From Pseudomonadota bacterium (GTDB taxonomy: Bacteria; Pseudomonadota; Gammaproteobacteria; Acidiferrobacterales; Acidiferrobacteraceae): 47,609 nt of DNA. Below the pieces are notes generated by a model. It had not been told where the DNA came from and did not search any database. It was given only the letters and a program-made list of their open reading frames with translations. Within the stretch, counting starts at the first letter, position 1; each line of letters starts with the position of its first letter. The position numbers and the translations under genes were made by a program. The DNA is taken from NCBI GenBank assembly GCA_021777335.1, contig JAJYDT010000014.1, forward strand, positions 1 through 47,609, given 5' to 3'. This document shows positions 4,317-44,094 of this stretch, piece by piece.

Positions 4317-5660
4317 TTAGGTCGGCGCAAGGTTGAGATGCTGGTTGACCGCCCGCTCCGGGTCGTACAGATAGTCGACACGCCCGGCCTCGACCTCCTT
4401 CAGGTATTCGTTGAAACGCTCCTTTGCCGCGACCCAATCGATACCCATCTTCTCGACCAGTTCCTCACAGGGCGAGGCATGCCACTGCAGCTGCACGATC
4501 CTGAGCGGATCCGCACCGCACGCAAGCGCGGCGAACTGCACGTCGGCCATGACGGGCATGCTGTAGTGCCGATCATGGGCCTTGCCAATCCACTGGTTCT
4601 TGTCCATGGTGGTGACGCACCCGGTATCGTGTGTCAACAGCACGTCGGCACGCGCTTCCTGGCGCGCCACGCGGATCTTCCGGTCCATGGTAAAAGATCG
4701 AACGAACTCCCGCTCGGAGATGATGTGCCGGAAACCAAACCCACAACAGTCATACCAGGTCGAATAGTCTATGACCTGGGCACCCAGCGACATGGCCACG
4801 GAGGTCGTGACCGCCACCCGGTTCCCACCGAGCACCTCAGGATCGTAGATCGCGTCTTCCGGAATCATCTTGTAGACATGGCAAGCGGGGTGTACCGCCA
4901 CGCGGAGGTGGGAGACGTCGACGCGCTGGAGCTCAGCCGCGATGCGCCGACGCATCACATGAAGCCACTCGCTGTAATGCACGATCTCTTCCGGGATGAC
5001 AATCTTGCCATCCACGAGGCGTCCGATCTTGCCGAGAATCTTTCTTACCTTGTCCCGCAGTTCGGCGGATTCGATGAGATATTTACGGATCTCCTTGTAG
5101 TTGCCAAACGACGTACCGCAGTGCACGAGCGGATAGAAGTGACCAAGATCGAAGCCATGCTGTTTTCCTGAAACATACGCCTGGTGGAAATTTCGGAGAA
5201 ACACGGCCGCAAGGGACTCGACATTGCCGATACCGGAACCGTGGTAGTTCCAGGCCGTGCAACTCGTCTGGTCCGTCTCGTCGAGATACTCTGTGCCAAA
5301 ACGGTTCATGACCCAGAGCAGACTCGTTGGATAGCCTGGGATGTTGCCGCACTGGCCACACGACTTGTGATGCCACAGACGGTTCGTCGGAATACGCTTG
5401 TTCCATCCGTAAAGCGTCTTCGTGTCCACCGGCTCATGCGCATCCGTAATCCTATGGACGATGACCTCCCCGTCTTTTTCGAGCTCCGCCAGATGCTCGC
5501 GGATATCGTCCATGCGCGCGCCAAGATCCATGGTCCTGCGGTCCACGTGCCGACGGACCCATTCCGTTGCCTGCTCCGCCTCGGCGGCAGACAGATGCGT
5601 TTCCCGGAAGAATGATCCGTGGCCCGCGATGCCGCGAGCGTTATGGTCACGAGTTTCCAT
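4317..5660 (-). CDS. HdrB-like CCG-domain iron-sulfur protein
   Basis: A 447-residue protein related to the heterodisulfide reductase B subunit, which reduces or forms disulfides at noncubane [4Fe-4S] clusters. Two CCG-like Cys regions are visible. The N-terminal one is altered: CGQCGNIPGYP, then SCTAWNYHG, then HCGTSFG. The C-terminal one is fuller: PACH, then 44 residues to YDCCGFGFRH, then 41 to TGCVTT, where the last Cys of CxxC is Thr. It is longer than methanogen HdrB (about 300) and fits the sulfur-oxidation branch better. AGAGG lies 9 nt before the ATG at 5660. An FNR-type box is 75 bp upstream and the fused flavoprotein gene precedes it, so electron transfer between the two products is a reasonable inference. 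Confidence 0.8.
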   Translation of the reverse strand: METRDHNARGIAGHGSFFRETHLSAAEAEQATEWVRRHVDRRTMDLGARMDDIREHLAELEKDGEVIVHRITDAHEPVDTKTLYGWNKRIPTNRLWHHKSCGQCGNIPGYPTSLLWVMNRFGTEYLDETDQTSCTAWNYHGSGIGNVESLAAVFLRNFHQAYVSGKQHGFDLGHFYPLVHCGTSFGNYKEIRKYLIESAELRDKVRKILGKIGRLVDGKIVIPEEIVHYSEWLHVMRRRIAAELQRVDVSHLRVAVHPACHVYKMIPEDAIYDPEVLGGNRVAVTTSVAMSLGAQVIDYSTWYDCCGFGFRHIISEREFVRSFTMDRKIRVARQEARADVLLTHDTGCVTTMDKNQWIGKAHDRHYSMPVMADVQFAALACGADPLRIVQLQWHASPCEELVEKMGIDWVAAKERFNEYLKEVEAGRVDYLYDPERAVNQHLNLAPT

Positions 5661-5699
5661 AGGGTTCGCCTCTTTAAGGTTTATGAAAACGAGGCGGTC

Positions 5700-5742
5700 A
5701 TTGTGGAACGTCCCCGGCCCGGATTGGCTTGATCTCGATCAA
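5700..5742 (-). promoter_or_regulatory. FNR/Dnr-dependent class II promoter of the HdrB-like gene
   Basis: A perfect palindrome TTGATCTCGATCAA occupies 5729-5742. On the minus strand a CACAAT -10 candidate follows at 5705-5700, which puts the start near 5693 and the box centre at about -42, the spacing of FNR class II activation. The site lies in the 123-bp gap between the flavoprotein stop and the HdrB-like ATG, so the downstream gene can be induced separately. Confidence 0.75.
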
Positions 5743-5783: not shown

Positions 5784-8700
5784 TTAAGGTGGCACCGGGC
5801 GGTCGTCAGCGCAGGCAAGCACATAGGTGAGCCAGTCGCTCGATAACCTGTCCGAGAGACGGTTTTGGGCCTGGCGCGCTGCGAGGTTATCAAGATCAAC
5901 CCAGGCAAGCGGCTGATCCTGCCCTGCACACGAAAAAACGGCGCGCGTACGCCGCCCAGTTGCGGGATCGATCTGCCACTGCAGGCACTGAGCGCACACA
6001 CCTTTCAGCATGCACTGCATAGGGCTGCCCACGGTCGCGACTACCTCAAGCCCGGGCCTGAAAAATCGCGCGAAATCCCCTTTGAGGGCATGCTGGAAAA
6101 CCTTGAGCAGCCCGGTCGAACCCATCACCATCAGGCGATCCACCTCGGCAAGCGGGATTCGCGGGGACGCGGTTTCTTCCTGGCCGAGGACACGCAGCAC
6201 CTCCACCATGTCGACGGCCTGAAGCGAGCGGTCCTGTGGCCGTCGCGCCGTGATCAGTGGCCCGGCTGCGGTGCACCAGACAATCTGGTCGGCCGCCTGT
6301 TCGAGTTCGTCCTGCAGGTCGAGCTCCGCGGCGTTCGCCAGCGCCGCCACGTACAGCACCCGGTTGCCCTCGGCACGCAGCGCCGGACCAATGTCGAGCA
6401 TCACCGCTGCGCCCCAGCGGCCCGCGACGATTACGATCGTCTTGCCACGCGGTATGTCCGTGGGTGCGCCAGTCGGGCCCATGAGTACAAGTGGTGTCCC
6501 GGGTTCGAGACGTCCTGCAAGACGCGGTCCCGTGCCCCACTGCAGGACCATAAGACGGATCTGATCACCCTCGACACCGGCACCGCTTACTGTCAACAGC
6601 GGCACCTGCAAACGGGTGCCGGCCACTACCGGGCTTGTCGCCTCAAAGGTCTGTAAACGGAAGAACTGTCCGGGACGGAAGCGTCGCGCTGCCATCGGAG
6701 CACGCACCCACAGCTCCACCATGCCTGGGCGGCTGCGATCAACAGCAGCTACACGCGGCACAAAAAGATCTGCCATACGCGACTGGAACGCGGGCAGATC
6801 TTCCTTCGCCAGCGGCCGTGACTCGATCGTCGTCATCACGTGCGGCCATGCGGTCTTGGCCGAAGCGATGGCCTTCACCACGCTGCCATGGAACACCGGA
6901 TGTGTATCCCCGAGAAAGCTGACGCGGCGTCCGTCCCATCCATAAGACGTGAACGGCCCACTCTCCGGCGATTTGCAGTGTTCTGCCACCGCGACAGCCT
7001 GCAGACCACCGCCGTTGGCAACGTGCGCCTGAAAATGATTGTCGTCCATGACGAAGCTGCCTGGGTGTTCCTGCTCATAGATCGTATTTGGCGCGGAGCC
7101 TGCGGCAATGAAAACGGCACGCGCGGGCAGGTGTACCTCCTGTCCTTGTCCGACAAATCGCCCATCTACCTCGATCATCCGCTGCAGCACGAGCGCCTTC
7201 ACATGACCGTACTGGTCCAGTTCCGCGCGCACCGGGTCGAGCCCCTCCGCGTAATAGATCCCCTCCTCCGCAGCCTTCAGGAGTTCCTCGTGGTTGCGCG
7301 TGTATGCCGGAGCATTGTTCATACCCTTGCGATAGGCAAGCGTGACCCCACCCCAGGCGCGGATCAGCGGAATGAAATCCGGCAGCTCACCAGCGCGCTC
7401 GGCACGCGCACGTTCAGCACGTACCGCCCGCCCATGTTCAAGGAATTCCTCAAAGATGGCCGCATCCTCCTCAGACAGCGCCCTGGAAGCCGAGCGCGAG
7501 CCGGGTTGCGCGGACATCGCCTCGTGACGCATGAGCACCTTTTCCACCTGCTTCACGTAGTAGGCCTGTACTTCGGTTGCCGTGTCGACTGCGGTAAGAC
7601 CGCCACCGATAACGACGGCCGGGAGACGCACCTGCAGATTGGCGAGACTTGTATGTTTTCCGGCGCCGGTCAACTGCAACGCCATAAGAAAATCGCTCGC
7701 CTGGCGCATGCCGCGGGCAAGGCTATTGGTCATAGGGAGCACGCGGGGCAACCCCGCGCCGGTTGCGATCACCACATGGTCGAACCCGAGATCCCATGCG
7801 TCGGGAACCGTTACGGTGCCTCCAAAACGCACACCGCCAAATACCTGAAAACCCGGGCGGCGCGCGAGCGTGAGATAGATGAGTTTGAGGAAGTTCTTAT
7901 CCCAACGCACCGTGATCCCATATTCGGCCACACCACCGAATCCGAGCAGGATGCGTTCGTCCAGGTCTTCGACAAGGCGCGACCAGTCGCGGATCGGGGC
8001 GGTACACCAGGCAGATGGGAGCGGCTCGATCTTGAGCCCATCGATTCCCACCACTGCACACCCCTCCATCGTCAGATGATGCGCCATGGTGAACCCAGCG
8101 GGCCCGAGCCCGGCGATCAGGACCTTCCGGCCATTGTAGGGTTTCATGCGGTACTGGACACGCCGCAATGGATTCCAGCGTGCGAGGAGATCATAGATCT
8201 CGACCCCCCAGGGCAATGCCAGTACGTCAGTCAGTATCCGGGTCTCAGTCTGCGGAATGTCCACCGGATCCTGCTTCTGATAGATGCAGGCCTTCATGCA
8301 GTCGTTACAGATCCGGTGGCCCGTCGCAGGCAGCATGGGATTGTCGACCATGATCATGGCGAGCGGTGCAATGACGTGGCCTTCGCGCTTCAGGACATGC
8401 ATCTCGGAGATCTTCTGGTCGAGCGGGCAGCCAGTGAGCACGACTCCGAGTGGGTTCTTCTTGAGCCCGAGTTCTGGCACACCCTTTTTCTCAGGGAACC
8501 CGCGGGAACAGAAGTCGCCCTCATGGTCGTGGCAGTAGATGCAGTAATGCACCTCATCCTGAGCCCTACGGGCGTCCGCGCGCGGGTCAGTCAGGTGAAA
8601 ACCGTCCCGGCGCCGGTAGTGGTGTGCCTCCTGCATCTCGGTGCCATAGCGCTCAATGCGATCTAAAGGCACAAGGTGCGCATGATCGACCCGTTCGGGC

Positions 8701-9272
8701 AGATGGAAACTCACCCAGCCTGCCACACGTGAGTGACCCCCGGACATGCGCAACGCCAACACGCACCACTGCGTCAGCGCCTCTATGGATGCCACATGTA
8801 ACTCTGGCTGCGCGATCCAGTCTTCGCCAAGACGCGCGACAGCGCCCTCGCGATCCCGTGGATCAAGACGCGCGCGCGCAATCTCTTGGTCGAGCCACGC
8901 GTCAAGTTCATCGAAGGAGTGATTGATGTCGCCGGCATAACGCCGTGCGCGGCGCAAGACGTAGTGTTTCTTGAAACGCATGACAACATCGTGGGATCGC
9001 GTGGCCTCGCGCGCGGCGGTGACCTCGCGTTCGATACCGAAGAGACTCGCAACAAATAGCTCCACGTGGGGCGCGCAGGCAAGGAGCAGCTTGCTTATTT
9101 CGAGCGGTGAGGTCGGCGTGTTGCTGCCGCGATAGTCTTCAAGCGCGCGGGCGAGTAACGCGTCATGCCGCCCAAGCTCGGCCAGAAAGGCCCGGTCCAG
9201 GCGGTCCAGACCCTCCGCAGTGAGAATCTCGCTGAACACAAAACCCTTGAGATCAAGTCTTGAGTGATCCAT
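5784..9272 (-). CDS. giant fused flavoprotein: unknown N-domain, NfnL/GltD-like, NfnS/PyrK-like
   Basis: A 1162-residue cytoplasmic iron-sulfur flavoprotein in three parts. Residues 1 to about 235 match no family I recognise. Cys motifs C244-x2-C247-x7-C255 and C322-x2-C325-x3-C329 precede a GltD-like module with an FAD Rossmann motif GLGPAG (near 387) and an NAD(P)H-type motif VVIGGGLTAVD (near 554). From about 800 comes a ferredoxin-reductase/PyrK-like module with RPGQFFRLQ, MGPTGAP and a [2Fe-2S] set C1087-x5-C1093-x2-C1096-x18-C1115; its nucleotide-binding loop is degenerate (AGRWGAA). The order matches NfnL-NfnS of the electron-bifurcating ferredoxin:NADP reductase. I prefer the ATG at 9272, coupled to a 27-codon ORF; a TTG at 9290 is the alternative. 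Confidence 0.85.
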   Translation of the reverse strand: MDHSRLDLKGFVFSEILTAEGLDRLDRAFLAELGRHDALLARALEDYRGSNTPTSPLEISKLLLACAPHVELFVASLFGIEREVTAAREATRSHDVVMRFKKHYVLRRARRYAGDINHSFDELDAWLDQEIARARLDPRDREGAVARLGEDWIAQPELHVASIEALTQWCVLALRMSGGHSRVAGWVSFHLPERVDHAHLVPLDRIERYGTEMQEAHHYRRRDGFHLTDPRADARRAQDEVHYCIYCHDHEGDFCSRGFPEKKGVPELGLKKNPLGVVLTGCPLDQKISEMHVLKREGHVIAPLAMIMVDNPMLPATGHRICNDCMKACIYQKQDPVDIPQTETRILTDVLALPWGVEIYDLLARWNPLRRVQYRMKPYNGRKVLIAGLGPAGFTMAHHLTMEGCAVVGIDGLKIEPLPSAWCTAPIRDWSRLVEDLDERILLGFGGVAEYGITVRWDKNFLKLIYLTLARRPGFQVFGGVRFGGTVTVPDAWDLGFDHVVIATGAGLPRVLPMTNSLARGMRQASDFLMALQLTGAGKHTSLANLQVRLPAVVIGGGLTAVDTATEVQAYYVKQVEKVLMRHEAMSAQPGSRSASRALSEEDAAIFEEFLEHGRAVRAERARAERAGELPDFIPLIRAWGGVTLAYRKGMNNAPAYTRNHEELLKAAEEGIYYAEGLDPVRAELDQYGHVKALVLQRMIEVDGRFVGQGQEVHLPARAVFIAAGSAPNTIYEQEHPGSFVMDDNHFQAHVANGGGLQAVAVAEHCKSPESGPFTSYGWDGRRVSFLGDTHPVFHGSVVKAIASAKTAWPHVMTTIESRPLAKEDLPAFQSRMADLFVPRVAAVDRSRPGMVELWVRAPMAARRFRPGQFFRLQTFEATSPVVAGTRLQVPLLTVSGAGVEGDQIRLMVLQWGTGPRLAGRLEPGTPLVLMGPTGAPTDIPRGKTIVIVAGRWGAAVMLDIGPALRAEGNRVLYVAALANAAELDLQDELEQAADQIVWCTAAGPLITARRPQDRSLQAVDMVEVLRVLGQEETASPRIPLAEVDRLMVMGSTGLLKVFQHALKGDFARFFRPGLEVVATVGSPMQCMLKGVCAQCLQWQIDPATGRRTRAVFSCAGQDQPLAWVDLDNLAARQAQNRLSDRLSSDWLTYVLACADDRPVPP

Positions 9273-9355
9273 CAGTACCCGCCGCGGCAATACCGGAGAT
9301 TCACCCCGCGCTCATACCGCTTATCTGTACCTGAAACTCCCAGATTACCTGCCAT
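9272..9355 (-). CDS. 27-residue ORF translationally coupled to the flavoprotein
   Basis: An ATG at 9355 follows GGAGAGGAG, the strongest ribosome site in this region. The frame encodes 27 residues: MAGNLGVSG at the start, a charged middle, and a C-terminal NLRYCRGGY. Its TGA overlaps the flavoprotein ATG (TGATG). Whatever the peptide does, the arrangement suits translational coupling for a gene whose own ribosome site is weak. I know no family for it. It could be a leader or coupling ORF, or a genuine small protein with one Cys. Confidence 0.5.
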   Translation of the reverse strand: MAGNLGVSGTDKRYERGVNLRYCRGGY

Positions 9356-10003: not shown

Positions 10004-10453
10004 ATGGCGGAATACCGCGGATGTGAATTGCCTGACGACCTGTTTTACGACCTCGATTACGTCTGGGCGCGCGCCGAAGGTGATGGACTGATTGTTCTCG
10101 GCATCACAGATGCTGCGCAGACTATGGCAGGTCGAGTGCAGAAAATCCGCATCAAGAAGGTTGGCACACACCTTGCGAAGGGCCGGCACGTGGCTACGCT
10201 TGAAAGCGGGAAATGGGCGGGTGGTATTCCATGTCCGTTCGAGGGAACCGTCGAGACCGTCAACGAACAGGTCCTGAACGACCCGCATCTCGTCAATATC
10301 GGTCCCTATACCGATGCCTGGCTGGCCAAGGTCCGGCCTACGGACCCGAGGCACGCCTTTGACGCACTGACAACGGGAATCGTGGCGATCGAGGCCCTGA
10401 AACGCTGGATCGAACGCTACGACGTGCAATGCATGCGCTGCGCCCAACCTTAG
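10004..10453 (+). CDS. lbpA: LbpA-like lipoate-binding (GcvH-type) protein
   Basis: A 149-residue H-protein fold. The lipoylation site is K70 in TLESGKWAGG; Gly before and Trp after the Lys are typical of the lipoate-binding proteins tied to Hdr-like sulfur oxidation, whereas glycine-cleavage GcvH usually has ESVKAAS. The core GITDAAQTMAGRVQKIRIKKVG and the closing NDPHLVNIGPYTDAWLAKV follow the family. In sHdr organisms LbpA carries sulfur intermediates on its lipoyl arm during oxidation to sulfite in the cytoplasm. The ATG at 10004 has GGTGG 5 nt upstream. An extra C-terminal helix ends in CMRCAQP, a CxxC that I cannot explain. It is divergent from the Nfn-like and HdrB-like genes. Confidence 0.85.
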   Translation: MAEYRGCELPDDLFYDLDYVWARAEGDGLIVLGITDAAQTMAGRVQKIRIKKVGTHLAKGRHVATLESGKWAGGIPCPFEGTVETVNEQVLNDPHLVNIGPYTDAWLAKVRPTDPRHAFDALTTGIVAIEALKRWIERYDVQCMRCAQP

Positions 10454-38375: not shown

Positions 38376-41300
38376 ATGGCAAAATCCTCGATTGCACCTG
38401 CAGAGGTTGCCCGCACCTCACCGTTTGCTCCACCTCTCCCGGACGCGGGCACTCGGCTTGCCTGGCGCGGGCTTGAGGGAAGCGCACGCGGGCTTGCGCT
38501 TGCCCAGGCGGCACGGGCCCACGTGGGTCCGCTGCTTATCGTCACTGCTGACGCCCGCCATGCCCAGCAGCTGGAGGAAGAGATCCGGTTCTACGGTGGA
38601 TCGGGGCTCATTGTCCTGACGTTCCCCGACTGGGAATCACTGCCATATGACGCATTCTCACCCCACCATGAGATTGTTTCCGAACGACTGAGGGCGCTTG
38701 CGCTGCTGCCTACGCTTACGCACGGCGTGGTCATCGCAAGCACGAGTACGCTGATGCACCGGCTCCCTCCACGGCAACACCTTGAGGCCCATAGCTTCAG
38801 CCTCGCACAAGGCGGCCGTCTTGACCTGAACGAGTTCCGTAACCGGCTGACGCGTAATGGCTACGAAACGGTGAGCCAGGTATCACTGCCGGGCGAATTC
38901 GCTGTCCGCGGTGGAATCATTGATGTCTTCCCGATGGGTGCGCAGGCACCCCTGCGCGTCGAACTGTTCGACGACTCCATTGAGTCGCTGCGCTCATTTG
39001 ATCCGGAAACACAACGTTCCCTTGACTCGCTGACGCACCTCGATCTCCTGCCCGGGCGTGAATACCCGACGACTGAGGACGCGGTACATCGTTTCCGCGC
39101 CGCGTTCCGCGCTGCCTTCGAAGGTGACCCGCACAGGCACCCCCTGTACCGAGATGTCAGCAACGGGCTTCACCCAAGCGGCATCGAGTATTATCTGCCG
39201 CTCTTTTTTCCAGAGACCGCCGTGATCGCCGATTATCTCCCGCCCTCCACGCTGTGCGTGCTGGAAACAGGCGATGGCGATACCGCGGCACACTTTGAGG
39301 AAGAAACCAGGGCGCGGTACGAGGCTCTGCGACACGATCGTGAACGCCCGATCCTGCCACCTGATCGCATATTTCTTGCGGCCTCCGAGTTCGAGCGCAT
39401 GCTTGCGCCCTTTGCGCGCATCTTCCTCGAGACAGATGGCGCGGTGATCGGACCCGCGGTGACCTTTGCAAACCTGCCGCCGCCGGTACTGCCGCTGCAT
39501 CCAAAGGACGCAAGACCGTACCGTGCGCTCTTCGAGTATCTCGCCGGACACGTGGGCCGCGTGCTGCTGGTTGCCGAGACGACCGGGCGGCGTGAAGCAA
39601 TGCGCGCCGTGCTCGCCAGTGACCGTCTGGAACCGGACGACTGCAGCAGCTGGGACGACTTTCTCGCCAGCTCATCGCGGCTTGCGATCACCTGCGCCGC
39701 ACTCGACCGCGGCCTCGCACTCGAGGAACCGGCACTCGGGGTCCTCACGGAGTCACAGCTCTACGGGGAGCATGTGGTGCAACGCCGCCGCCGCTCAGGT
39801 GTGCGCGACACGGATACCGTGATCCGCAGTCTGGCGGAACTAAAACCAGGGGATCCGGTGGTTCACGAGGAACACGGGGTCGGCCGCTATCTCGGACTGC
39901 AGTACCTTGATGTCGGCGACGGGCGCGGAGAATTCCTCGCGCTCGAATATGCCGGCGGCGACAAGCTCTATGCACCGGTGACTGCACTGAACCTGATCCA
40001 CCGCTACACAGCCACCCATCCGGACCATGCACCACTTCACCGCCTTGGGGGCGAGATCTGGGACAAGGCCCGGGCACGCGCCCGGGAAAAGGCGCACGAC
40101 GCGGCCGCGGAACTGCTCGAATTGTACGCCAAGCGCGCGGCCCGCAAGGGACATGCGTTCCGCGCGCGTGACGACTACTACCGCGCCTTTGCCGCCGCAT
40201 TCCCGTTCGAAGAAACTCCCGACCAGACCCGGGCAATTGAAGCAGTCCTCACCGATATGGAATCGGACCGGCCCATGGACCGCCTGGTGTGCGGCGATGT
40301 CGGTTTCGGCAAGACCGAGGTCGCAATGCGCGCGGCGTTTCTGGCGGTCCAGGACCGACGGCAGGTCGCTGTGCTGGTGCCCACGACACTGCTTGTACAG
40401 CAGCATTTTGAAAACTTCCGGGACCGTTTCTCCGACACGGGTGCCCGGATCGAGGCGCTGTCGCGCTTCCGCTCTGCAACCGAACAGCGCGATGTCCTCG
40501 ACCGGCTCGCGGGCGGCTCGGTTGACCTCGTCATCGGCACCCACCGGCTGCTGCAGCAGGACGTGCGATTCAAGGATCTCGGGCTCGTGATCATCGATGA
40601 GGAACACCGGTTCGGGGTGCGCCAGAAAGAGCGCCTGAAAGCTCTGCGCAGCGAGGTCGATATCCTTACACTCACGGCCACGCCGGTACCAAGAACGCTC
40701 AATCTCGCGCTGGCCGCACTGCGCGACATCTCGCTGATATCGACCCCGCCTCAGGAACGCCTTTCAGTCAAGACCTTCGTCACACAACGGAACGATGCGC
40801 TCATCCGCGAGGCGTGTCTGCGAGAACTACGCCGCGGGGGCCAGATCTATTTTCTGCATAACGAGGTGAAAACGATCGCGCGCGCAGGGGAGCAGCTCAA
40901 ACGGCTCATTCCAGAGGCGGAAATCCGCATCGCACACGGACAGATGCCCGAGCGCGCGCTCGAGCGCGTGATGCTGGACTTCTACCATCAACGCTTCAAT
41001 ATCCTGCTCTGCAGTACAATCATCGAGACCGGCATCGATGTGCCGACCGCGAACACGATCCTCATTGAGCGTGCGGACAAGTTCGGGCTGGCGCAGATGC
41101 ACCAGTTGCGCGGGCGCGTGGGCCGCTCGCACCACCGGGCGTACGCCTACCTGCTGGTTCCTCCCGATCCCCTGTTGACCGCTGATGCGCGCAAGCGCCT
41201 TGATGCGATTGCTTCGCTCGAAGAACTCGGCGCGGGCTTCGCGCTCGCCTCGCACGATCTCGAAATCCGCGGCGCCGGGGAGCTCCTCGGAGAGACCCAG

Positions 41301-41843
41301 AGTGGCCAGATCGACGATATTGGTTTCACGCTCTATGCCGAGCTTCTGGAACGGGCGGTACGATCGCTGCAGTCAGGAGAGCCCGATGTGCGCCTTGACC
41401 CACGGACTACGGACATCAACCTGCATGCCCCGGCGCTGCTGCCTGAGGGCTATGTGCCGGACACCCATGTACGGCTCGTGCTGTACAAGCGCATCAGTAC
41501 GGCGCACACCGAGGACGATCTGACTGAACTTCAGGTGGAGCTGATCGACCGCTTCGGGCTGCTCCCGGCCGCTGCCAAGCTGCTGTTCCGGATTGCCTCG
41601 CTCAAGCTCAAGGCATCCCCTCTGCGCATCACGCGGATCGAGGCCGGCCCGAAGGGCATCCGGTTCGAGTTCGACCAACAGCCGGCCGTTGATCCCTCGC
41701 GCGTGATCGCGCTCATCCAGTCGGGCCCCGGGTATCGTCTTGATGGCCGGCATCTGCGCGTCAAGGCCGATCTGCCCTCGGCCGACGCGCGGGTCGAGAC
41801 GATCGAGAAGATCCTCTCAGCTTTGGCGGGGCGCGCCGCGTAG
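38376..41843 (+). CDS. mfd: transcription-repair coupling factor Mfd
   Basis: A 1155-residue Mfd, which removes stalled RNA polymerase and recruits UvrA. The UvrB-like N-terminal domains hold FPDWESLPYD and GEFAVRGGIIDVFP; the polymerase-interacting domain begins DPVVHEEHGVGRYLGL; the RecG-like motor has Walker A GDVGFGKT (640-647) and DEEH (741-744), then LTATPVPRTL and the TRG region HQLRGRVGRSHHRAYAYL. The C-terminal D7 domain is present. I chose ATG 38376, which gives normal length; the ribosome site is weak. The last 83 bp overlap the opposing GGDEF-EAL gene. Confidence 0.97.
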   Translation: MAKSSIAPAEVARTSPFAPPLPDAGTRLAWRGLEGSARGLALAQAARAHVGPLLIVTADARHAQQLEEEIRFYGGSGLIVLTFPDWESLPYDAFSPHHEIVSERLRALALLPTLTHGVVIASTSTLMHRLPPRQHLEAHSFSLAQGGRLDLNEFRNRLTRNGYETVSQVSLPGEFAVRGGIIDVFPMGAQAPLRVELFDDSIESLRSFDPETQRSLDSLTHLDLLPGREYPTTEDAVHRFRAAFRAAFEGDPHRHPLYRDVSNGLHPSGIEYYLPLFFPETAVIADYLPPSTLCVLETGDGDTAAHFEEETRARYEALRHDRERPILPPDRIFLAASEFERMLAPFARIFLETDGAVIGPAVTFANLPPPVLPLHPKDARPYRALFEYLAGHVGRVLLVAETTGRREAMRAVLASDRLEPDDCSSWDDFLASSSRLAITCAALDRGLALEEPALGVLTESQLYGEHVVQRRRRSGVRDTDTVIRSLAELKPGDPVVHEEHGVGRYLGLQYLDVGDGRGEFLALEYAGGDKLYAPVTALNLIHRYTATHPDHAPLHRLGGEIWDKARARAREKAHDAAAELLELYAKRAARKGHAFRARDDYYRAFAAAFPFEETPDQTRAIEAVLTDMESDRPMDRLVCGDVGFGKTEVAMRAAFLAVQDRRQVAVLVPTTLLVQQHFENFRDRFSDTGARIEALSRFRSATEQRDVLDRLAGGSVDLVIGTHRLLQQDVRFKDLGLVIIDEEHRFGVRQKERLKALRSEVDILTLTATPVPRTLNLALAALRDISLISTPPQERLSVKTFVTQRNDALIREACLRELRRGGQIYFLHNEVKTIARAGEQLKRLIPEAEIRIAHGQMPERALERVMLDFYHQRFNILLCSTIIETGIDVPTANTILIERADKFGLAQMHQLRGRVGRSHHRAYAYLLVPPDPLLTADARKRLDAIASLEELGAGFALASHDLEIRGAGELLGETQSGQIDDIGFTLYAELLERAVRSLQSGEPDVRLDPRTTDINLHAPALLPEGYVPDTHVRLVLYKRISTAHTEDDLTELQVELIDRFGLLPAAAKLLFRIASLKLKASPLRITRIEAGPKGIRFEFDQQPAVDPSRVIALIQSGPGYRLDGRHLRVKADLPSADARVETIEKILSALAGRAA

Positions 41844-44094
41844 CAAGCGGACGCGGCGTACGTCCGCGGGGCTCCCGGACCGGCCCCTTGCCGGCGGCAG
41901 GTGCCGCAGCCCTGGCACGGGGTCCTTTTTGGATACCAGGCGCCCAAGGAGAGTTGCGCAGCCACGCCCCGAGCGCGTCCGCCGGAAGCGGCCGGCTCAT
42001 ATGATAGCCCTGAGCCTCATCGCAGCCGGACGCAAACAACCGGTCCCAGGTCTCCGGATTCTCCACCCCCTCGGCGATCACCCGCAGGCCGAGATGATGG
42101 GCCATGTCGATCGTCGAACGGACGATTGTCGCATCGTCGCTGTCTCCAACCATATCCATGACAAAGGACTTGTCGATCTTGACCGCGTGGACCGGCAATT
42201 TCTTGAGATAGCTGAGCGAGGAATAACCGGTGCCGAAGTCGTCGATCGAAAGGCGCACACCCATCTTGTCCAGGCGCGCGAGCAGTGCCATCGCGTGCAC
42301 CGGATCGACCATCAGCATGCTTTCGGTGATTTCAAGTTCGAGCCATCGCGCCGCGAGCCCCGCATCCACCAGCGCCCGCACCACCTGGTCGGGCAGACTC
42401 TGGTCCTGGAGATTGCGCGCCGAGATGTTCACAGCGACTGAAAGGTCGAGCCCCTCCCGGTGCCAGGCGGCGCACTGGTGAAGCGCCGTGCGCAGCACCC
42501 AGAGCGTGAGCGGTTTTATGAAACCGCTATGCTCCGCCATCGGAATGAACTCGTCCGGCCCGATCAGTCCGAGATCATGATGCTGCCACCGCGCGAGCGC
42601 TTCCACCCCGAGCGTGCGGCCGGTCTTAAGATCCACCTTCGGCTGGTAGACAAGGAATATCTGGTTGCGGTCGAGCGCCTCACTGAGGGCATTCATGAGA
42701 GCCAGACGTCGCGGACTGTACGGGTCGCGTTCCGGCGCATAGACGAGAAACTTGTGGCTGGACTGCCGGGCGGCCTGCAACGCGACATCCGCGTGCTGCA
42801 TGAGCCGGCCGGGTTCGTTGCCATGGTCCGGGCAGAGTGCGATTCCGGCACTGACATCGACGTCGACAGTGACCTGTTCAAGCGCAAACGGCGGCGCGAG
42901 TACCTGCTGCGCCCTGCCCGTGACCTCACGCGCCTGCTCCTCGTCCGCCCCGGTCAACAGTAGCGCGAACACACCGCTGCCGGCGTAGGTAAGAACATCG
43001 TCGCCCCCGAGCAATGGGTGCAGACGGGGTCCGACCTGCTGGAGGAGGAGATCCCCGATCGGATGACCGAGCGTGTTGTTGATGTCCCTCAGGCGATCAA
43101 GACCGAGCATGATAAGCGCAAGAGGCGGCACAGGCGACCGTGTCAGCCGTTCCTTGATCCGTTCCGCCAGCAACACGCGGTTGGGCAACCCTGTCAGGAC
43201 GTCGTAGTAGGCCTGACGCCGGACGATCTCCACCAGGTGCAGGCGCTCGCTGATGTCACGCGCAATGACAACAAAACGATGTGCGCCTTCTGGCCCCATC
43301 CGGCTGACCGCGATCTCGAGCGGCACGGATTCGCCATCCCGGCGCTGGCCCCGGGCCTCACGCGTGCCGATCCTGAGCACGTCATGTTCCGACCCAGACG
43401 TCTGCCCGTGTGTCTCCGGCAATAACATCCCGACCGGCCGCCCGATGACCTCATCGGGCACGTAGCCGAAGACTTGCGCCACCCTGGGGTTGATGGATTC
43501 GACCGTACCCCCGGCATCGAGCGTGAGGATGACGCCCGCCACGTTGTCCAGAATCGCGCGCAGATGCGCCTCCTGATCCTTGAGCAACGTGTGCGACTGG
43601 TACAGCGACTGGACGACACCAAGTTCCCGCTCGACGCACGCGGCAAGGTCGTTCAGGACCTGCTGTCCGGCAGTATCCAGCTGCCGCGGGCGCGTGTCGA
43701 CGACACAGAAGGTTCCCAGACGGTTACCGTCCTCGTCTTCGAGGGTGCGGCCGGCGTAGAAGCGGACGAAGGGTTCGTGCGTCACAAGCGGGTTATCCGA
43801 GAAACGCGGATCGAGATGGGTGTCAGGGACGATCATGAGGCCACCCTGGACGATTGCATGGGCGCAGAACGAGATATCGCGCGGCGTCTCGCACACAGAA
43901 ACGCCCTGCCGGGATTTGAACCACTGGCGATCCGCATCAATGAGCGAGATGAACGAAACGGGCACATCGAACAGCTGTTTCGCAATGCGCGTAAACCGGT
44001 CGAAGCGCTCCTCGGGCGCGGTATCGAGCATATTCAGGCGACGCAACGCCGCGAGGCGCTCGCGTTCGCGGGGCAGCACGGCGGGCATCAGCAA
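41761..44094 (-). CDS. GAF-PAS-GGDEF-EAL protein, degenerate GGDEF
   Basis: A 777-residue soluble sensor with GAF (about 25-165, opening RLNMLDTAPEERFDRFTRIA), PAS (about 175-285), GGDEF-like (about 290-455) and EAL (about 465-715). The GGDEF site reads GSGVF and the I-site is GGDD, so cyclase activity is not expected. The EAL set is complete: VEALARW, N in NIS, LEITES, IDDFGTGYSS, KIDKSF, AEGVE. The last 60 residues are Arg/Pro/Ala-rich and are encoded partly antisense to mfd. The start is TTG 44094, with AGGAGG 6 nt upstream; ATG 44088 is less well spaced. Confidence 0.9.
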   Translation of the reverse strand: MLMPAVLPRERERLAALRRLNMLDTAPEERFDRFTRIAKQLFDVPVSFISLIDADRQWFKSRQGVSVCETPRDISFCAHAIVQGGLMIVPDTHLDPRFSDNPLVTHEPFVRFYAGRTLEDEDGNRLGTFCVVDTRPRQLDTAGQQVLNDLAACVERELGVVQSLYQSHTLLKDQEAHLRAILDNVAGVILTLDAGGTVESINPRVAQVFGYVPDEVIGRPVGMLLPETHGQTSGSEHDVLRIGTREARGQRRDGESVPLEIAVSRMGPEGAHRFVVIARDISERLHLVEIVRRQAYYDVLTGLPNRVLLAERIKERLTRSPVPPLALIMLGLDRLRDINNTLGHPIGDLLLQQVGPRLHPLLGGDDVLTYAGSGVFALLLTGADEEQAREVTGRAQQVLAPPFALEQVTVDVDVSAGIALCPDHGNEPGRLMQHADVALQAARQSSHKFLVYAPERDPYSPRRLALMNALSEALDRNQIFLVYQPKVDLKTGRTLGVEALARWQHHDLGLIGPDEFIPMAEHSGFIKPLTLWVLRTALHQCAAWHREGLDLSVAVNISARNLQDQSLPDQVVRALVDAGLAARWLELEITESMLMVDPVHAMALLARLDKMGVRLSIDDFGTGYSSLSYLKKLPVHAVKIDKSFVMDMVGDSDDATIVRSTIDMAHHLGLRVIAEGVENPETWDRLFASGCDEAQGYHMSRPLPADALGAWLRNSPWAPGIQKGPRARAAAPAAGKGPVREPRGRTPRPLATRRAPPKLRGSSRSSRPARRPRADRP

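Follow-up and report, generated by a model that had tools for sequence, protein, structure and literature searches.

A conserved Nfn-type flavoprotein in a new three-part fused form, with a possible role in ferredoxin–NADP(H) electron exchange

Fused homologues of Nfn in related forms are already known, without a function, from a survey which reported no duplication of fused nfn and in which Nfn was thought to be almost absent from aerobes (PMC6405883). One of them, the Pattern C form, has reported proteobacterial members, with ADI67453 of Mobiluncus curtisii as its type member (PMC6405883). The clusters of NfnB that correspond to those considered below are ligated by seven Cys and one Glu, and a YRR motif holds the NADP phosphate (PMC7596348). 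The protein described here, encoded in a 47,609-nucleotide stretch of bacterial DNA (the window), represents a conserved uncharacterised family whose Nfn-type architecture is joined in three parts, a form new among the fused Nfn proteins.

The gene lies on the minus strand at 5784–9272, with its stop at 5784, and encodes 1162 amino acids. The reading frame is open from 9290, the first TTG, and the first ATG, at 9272, is the likely start; the upper end of 9355 given in the initial annotation is out of frame. With the coordinates corrected in this manner, the architecture proposed there, a fused NfnL-NfnS flavoprotein carrying an extra N-terminal domain, was confirmed. The Fer4_20, Pyr_redox_2, GltA and PyrK models all match the protein, as does GltD, and it matches both chains of Pyrococcus NfnI (5jca_L and 5jca_S). 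The AlphaFold model, with 42 family members, has a mean pLDDT of 87.5 and a pTM of 0.89.

In this model, residues 188–818 (6819–8711, minus strand) superpose on NfnL 5jfc_L with Z 26.2 and an rmsd of 2.6 over 441 residues at 28% identity. The double [4Fe-4S] region spans residues 244–343 (8244–8543, minus strand) and contains the two Cys clusters noticed earlier, C244, C247, C255 and C282 followed by C322, C325 and C329, kept in 119–121 of the 121 aligned homologues; C255 is present in 120 and the other six, together with Glu343, are invariant. An early reading, that the proximal cluster had lost its Glu ligand, was dropped: the ligand lies downstream, as this invariant Glu343, mapped through alignment to the NfnI chains. 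The NADP(H)-site motifs, GGG at 556–558 and Y-R-K/R at 647–649 (7326–7607, minus strand), are equally well kept, with GGG and Y647 invariant and R648 present in 120 of 121, and the two Rossmann motifs expected of a GltD/NfnL-like half are present and conserved. This half thus carries the seven Cys and one Glu predicted to hold two [4Fe-4S] clusters, and a putative NADP(H) site beside an FAD fold.

Fused behind it is a PyrK/NfnS-like half, residues 840–1162 (5784–6755, minus strand), as the initial annotation had it, recognised by the PyrK model and by its match to 5jca_S (E 9.1e-9 over 841–1004). It has an FAD fold and a predicted four-Cys [2Fe-2S] site, C1087, C1093, C1096 and C1115 (5928–6014, minus strand), kept in 119–121 of the 121 homologues. 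Its nucleotide loop, residues 950–956 (AGRWGAA, 6405–6425, minus strand; AGRWGAAV with the following residue), departs from the GGGxGxA pattern of an NAD(H) site. The degeneracy noted at first sight is real and also lineage-specific, and the hint that one NAD(P)H site has been lost is well founded. Altered loops occur in 81 of 121 sequences, all of one lineage that includes the window, whereas GGGLGNA is intact in the sister lineage (Methylococcales, Myxococcota, Acidobacteria, Nitrospirota and others). On a tree built from the NfnL half, so that the loop region itself was left out, two changes account for the distribution of loop states; one concerns a single near-intact sequence (L163), so there was essentially one change. 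Within the Acidithiobacillus/Ectothiorhodospiraceae part of the altered lineage GRWGAAVMLDIG is strongly conserved, and because the new motif is conserved, re-use of the loop rather than its decay is suggested. A very divergent, shortened fusion of 986 amino acids from a 1.0 Mb genome (L062, 7270–10230), still near FdxA and Grx4, is without the NfnS nucleotide loop region.

The N-terminal residues 1–187 (8712–9272, minus strand) form a separate domain, with ten helices making up residues 12–182. Modelled alone it is a confident all-helical prediction (pLDDT 88.6) for which no known relative was found: there was no consistent Pfam match across 41 family members, no significant match among PDB sequences, and nothing usable among PDB folds (Foldseek best E 3.1; VIA best Z 3.4), the missing fold match being no proof of a new fold. 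Of the roughly 235 residues that could not be placed initially, these 187 stand as structurally unrecognised, while 188–240 turn out to belong to the NfnL fold. The domain is nonetheless known to databases, since the family model NF005128/PRK06567 spans it (protein residues 17–697, E 4.9e-176). This coverage makes it a conserved part of the family and, together with the lack of a fold match, a structurally unrecognised domain that is not private to the window gene. The fusion scores 587.5 bits against a curated cut-off of 1072 and belongs near this uncharacterised model; a literature search for PRK06567 returned nothing, and no functional description of the fusion family was found in the literature searched. 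We suppose that the helical domain might dock a partner or hold a complex together.

The family is widespread. Of the 274 genomes sampled from the class, 52 encode a fusion, as do 56 of the 57 from the order. The genome collection yielded no fewer than 552 encoding places, with records from Acidithiobacillus, Nitrococcus, Halorhodospira, Methylococcus, Coxiella-like bacteria, Myxococcus, Corallococcus, Acidobacteria and Nitrospirota. The window's own genome (G000) has a second copy, 57% identical, on contig C49 at 38805–42275 (L043), adjoining moaB and moaC. Many genomes of the order share this moaB-moaC setting; the gene order moaB-moaC-DUF2892-fusion is kept, without every gene each time, in L059, L095–L099, L102 and L193–L196, often accompanied by a CRP-family gene. 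Clustering of neighbours from greedily called open reading frames was noisy owing to antisense frames, and was used only for identifiable genes.

In 14 of the 120 fusion loci the ferredoxin gene FdxA is close by. Five of these (L085, L087, L089, L093 and L132) have it directly upstream on the same strand, either overlapping the fusion, when the first possible start is used, or separated from it by about 20 bp. In Legionellales/Coxiella-type loci FdxA is divergent from the fusion, with Grx4 and sometimes BolA. FdxA is not adjacent to the fusion in the window itself; the window's genome has two FdxA genes and no match to Fpr (NF008178). With Fpr called by NF008178 at E 1e-30 across the 274 genomes, 85 have Fpr, and only four share it with the fusion where 16.1 would be expected (p 2e-5). 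Taking one genome per family, a rough correction which accounts for descent only partly, sharing remains at 2 against 9.0 expected (p 0.0016), and control genes are neutral with respect to the fusion (pntA, p 0.17; katG, p 0.62). Among the 18 genomes with HdrB1, Fpr occurs in six of the nine without the fusion and in none of the nine with it. Many of the 274 genomes have neither fusion nor Fpr, and the exclusion may in part reflect lineage.

With these considerations, we favour, with moderate confidence, a soluble single-chain descendant of Nfn acting mainly as an NADPH:ferredoxin oxidoreductase that replaces the missing Fpr. Electrons would pass through the fusion between NADPH and an FdxA-type ferredoxin in place of the Fpr reductase. 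The NfnL flavin would take a hydride from NADPH, and the [4Fe-4S] chain would carry single electrons out to ferredoxin. The NfnS flavin of the window's lineage perhaps no longer exchanges with NAD(H), serving instead another partner or an internal electron store. As fprA has been reported essential in Pseudomonas aeruginosa (PMC5302815), an enzyme that took over from Fpr would carry an important function.

The [2Fe-2S] half and the second flavin exceed the needs of a simple reductase, which leaves room for bifurcation or a third partner. Let us consider, then, a true bifurcating or confurcating enzyme in aerobes, where NADPH at the NfnL flavin would send a low-potential electron to ferredoxin and a high-potential electron via the [2Fe-2S] cluster and NfnS flavin to NAD+ in the sister lineage, with its intact loop, or to another acceptor in the window's lineage. 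The retention of every Nfn cofactor site on one chain, including the Glu-ligated [4Fe-4S] cluster, and the intact GGGLGNA in part of the family speak for such an enzyme; however, many hosts are aerobic, the NAD loop is altered in those 81 of 121 sequences, and the cluster region has a Cys-x2-Cys spacing in place of the longer Cys-x5-Cys, so that we hold it to be unlikely, if still worth serious attention. Slightly less likely still, in our estimate, is the most far-reaching version of these ideas. An Nfn-built enzyme widespread in aerobic bacteria would have replaced Fpr, adding a third kind to the known ferredoxin–NADP(H) enzymes, and one lineage would have swapped its NfnS NAD site for the conserved GRWGAAVMLDIG motif, which would bind another acceptor; the enzyme would then bifurcate in aerobes through a novel electron outlet, with the helical domain serving as a new docking module.

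The initial annotation, in view of the neighbouring HdrB-like and LbpA-like genes, had suggested a bifurcating or confurcating step that links NAD(P)H and ferredoxin to disulfide or lipoyl-bound sulfur. As to the enzyme class, the Nfn-like NAD(P)H/ferredoxin two-flavin assignment holds; the partnership with HdrB and LbpA is mostly unsupported. The HdrB gene (4317–5660, minus strand) is an extra, orphan paralogue of sHdrB1, sharing 77–79% identity with the sHdrB1 that the genome carries in its sHdr operon on contig C31 (L044), and it lies outside the fusion's conserved neighbourhood: HdrB adjoins the fusion in one of 120 loci, the window alone. It is preceded by a perfect FNR/DNR-type box, TTGATCGAGATCAA (5729–5742, minus strand), 68 bp upstream. 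No such box was found before the fusion in either the window copy or the C49 copy, and across 137 fusion genes a one-mismatch box precedes five; the idea that the fusion is regulated together with the HdrB and NnrS genes was accordingly rejected. In the class sHdrB1 occurs in 18 of 274 genomes (22 of 57 in the order), and the fusion is not consistently present with sHdr genes: 43 of its 52 genomes are without sHdrB1, the outcome named beforehand as the one that would count against the sulfur link, and nine of the 18 HdrB1 genomes are without the fusion. What remains of this link is an enrichment at the genome level (nine genomes with both against 3.4 expected, odds ratio 5, p 0.002; one genome per family, 6 against 1.9, p 0.004), which common ancestry may explain, and the presence of LbpA near the fusion. 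Among the 120 loci the latter was seen in the window and in L099, to which three further relatives (L193–L195) are added; all four relatives also have sHdr, and their LbpA is of the same subgroup as the window's. That the fusion partners HdrB and LbpA, feeding or draining electrons during the oxidation of lipoyl-bound sulfur or in disulfide chemistry, would accord with this enrichment, with the LbpA neighbours and with the adjacency in the window, but against the counts above, the fusion's place outside the regulon of HdrB's box, and family members in Methylococcus, Myxococcus, Acidobacteria and Coxiella-like bacteria, it seems to us very improbable.

The orphan sHdrB1 paralogues sit in nitric-oxide/denitrification clusters in the window (4317–5742), L184 (8275–9633), L185 (3564–4976) and L187 (7523–9345), the L184 cluster having NnrS-like, NorQ-, NorD- and NorE-like, Rrf2, DUF2249, DUF488 and hemerythrin genes and that of L187 a globin, a reductase and LbpA. 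Perfect FNR/DNR-type boxes precede HdrB at −68 in the window, −121 in L184 and −144 in L185, and the LbpA-HdrB pair at −68 in L187; none was found before three sHdr operons. The window's LbpA-like lipoyl protein (10004–10453, plus strand) belongs to a third subgroup with L099 (13524–14111), L193 (3231–3677) and L187 (7523–8035), being 65–74% identical to these copies and 35–44% to both LbpA types of sHdr operons, and genes of this subgroup adjoin either an orphan HdrB or a gene for a small thioredoxin-like protein. Elsewhere in the window, at 168–2967, DUF2249 genes form a block together with one PaaD-like and one NnrS-like gene; a perfect FNR/DNR-type box (2954–2967) stands 23 bp ahead of the NnrS-like gene. 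The orphan HdrB1 copies may be NO- or anoxia-induced Hdr parts. The boxes, the NO-cluster setting and the distinct LbpA subgroup together suggest that HdrB and LbpA form an NO-responsive module of their own, and that the window's fusion copy would lie next to it by chance.

Least probable of all is the role implied by database names, in which the protein would resemble the small subunit of glutamate synthase or be some other NADPH donor of GltD type that serves a separate synthase: GltD is the next-best and nearly equal fold match for residues 188–818 (Z 24.9 for 7mfm_I, 24.7 for 6s6t_E) and the NCBIfam name is glutamate synthase beta/2-polyprenylphenol hydroxylase, but identity to NfnL (27–28%) exceeds that to GltD (20–22%), no glutamate-synthase gene was noted among recurrent fusion neighbours, and GltD is not known to have a counterpart of the attached NfnS half and its [2Fe-2S] site.

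Returning to the reading we favour, an Nfn-type oxidoreductase in place of Fpr, hundreds of bacterial genomes carry this fusion enzyme of about 1200 residues under a misleading name. If bacteria lacking Fpr use it as their ferredoxin–NADP(H) enzyme, it would close a gap in how their iron-sulfur and ferredoxin metabolism is supplied with electrons. The natural series with intact and altered second nucleotide sites offers tests, in aerobes, of what flavin-based bifurcation requires.

Lastly, the fusion can be set against its nearest relatives. The PRK12779-like group, to which ADI67453 may belong, matches the fusion only partly (E 6.5e-16), and the likening to Pattern C may be made by description: a single chain, NfnS parts at the C-terminus, and a length some 200 amino acids beyond other fused Nfn. 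Unlike in the survey that defined that pattern (PMC6405883), the window's genome has two fusion copies. The alignment to NF005128/PRK06567 takes in the N-terminal domain as well as the NfnL half, and a piece of NfnS besides; the fusion, however, falls below the cut-off of that model, and the family's name is inherited from sequence similarity. DsrL, the NAD(P)H oxidoreductase of the reverse Dsr pathway (PMC7596348), shares the NfnL-like core with two [4Fe-4S] clusters, FAD and an NAD(P) site, but ends in a two-[4Fe-4S] ferredoxin domain where the fusion has a PyrK/NfnS half with one [2Fe-2S] motif. With Nfn itself (5jca, 5jfc, 4ylf) the fusion shares the NfnL fold over 188–818, the same cluster ligands and NADP(H) motif, and the NfnS-type flavin and [2Fe-2S] half. 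It differs from Nfn in being one chain in the order N-domain, L, S, with the extra helical domain, in a helical insertion around 570–640, in having Cys-x2-Cys in its cluster region where Nfn has Cys-x5-Cys, and, in the window's lineage, in the altered NfnS nucleotide loop.
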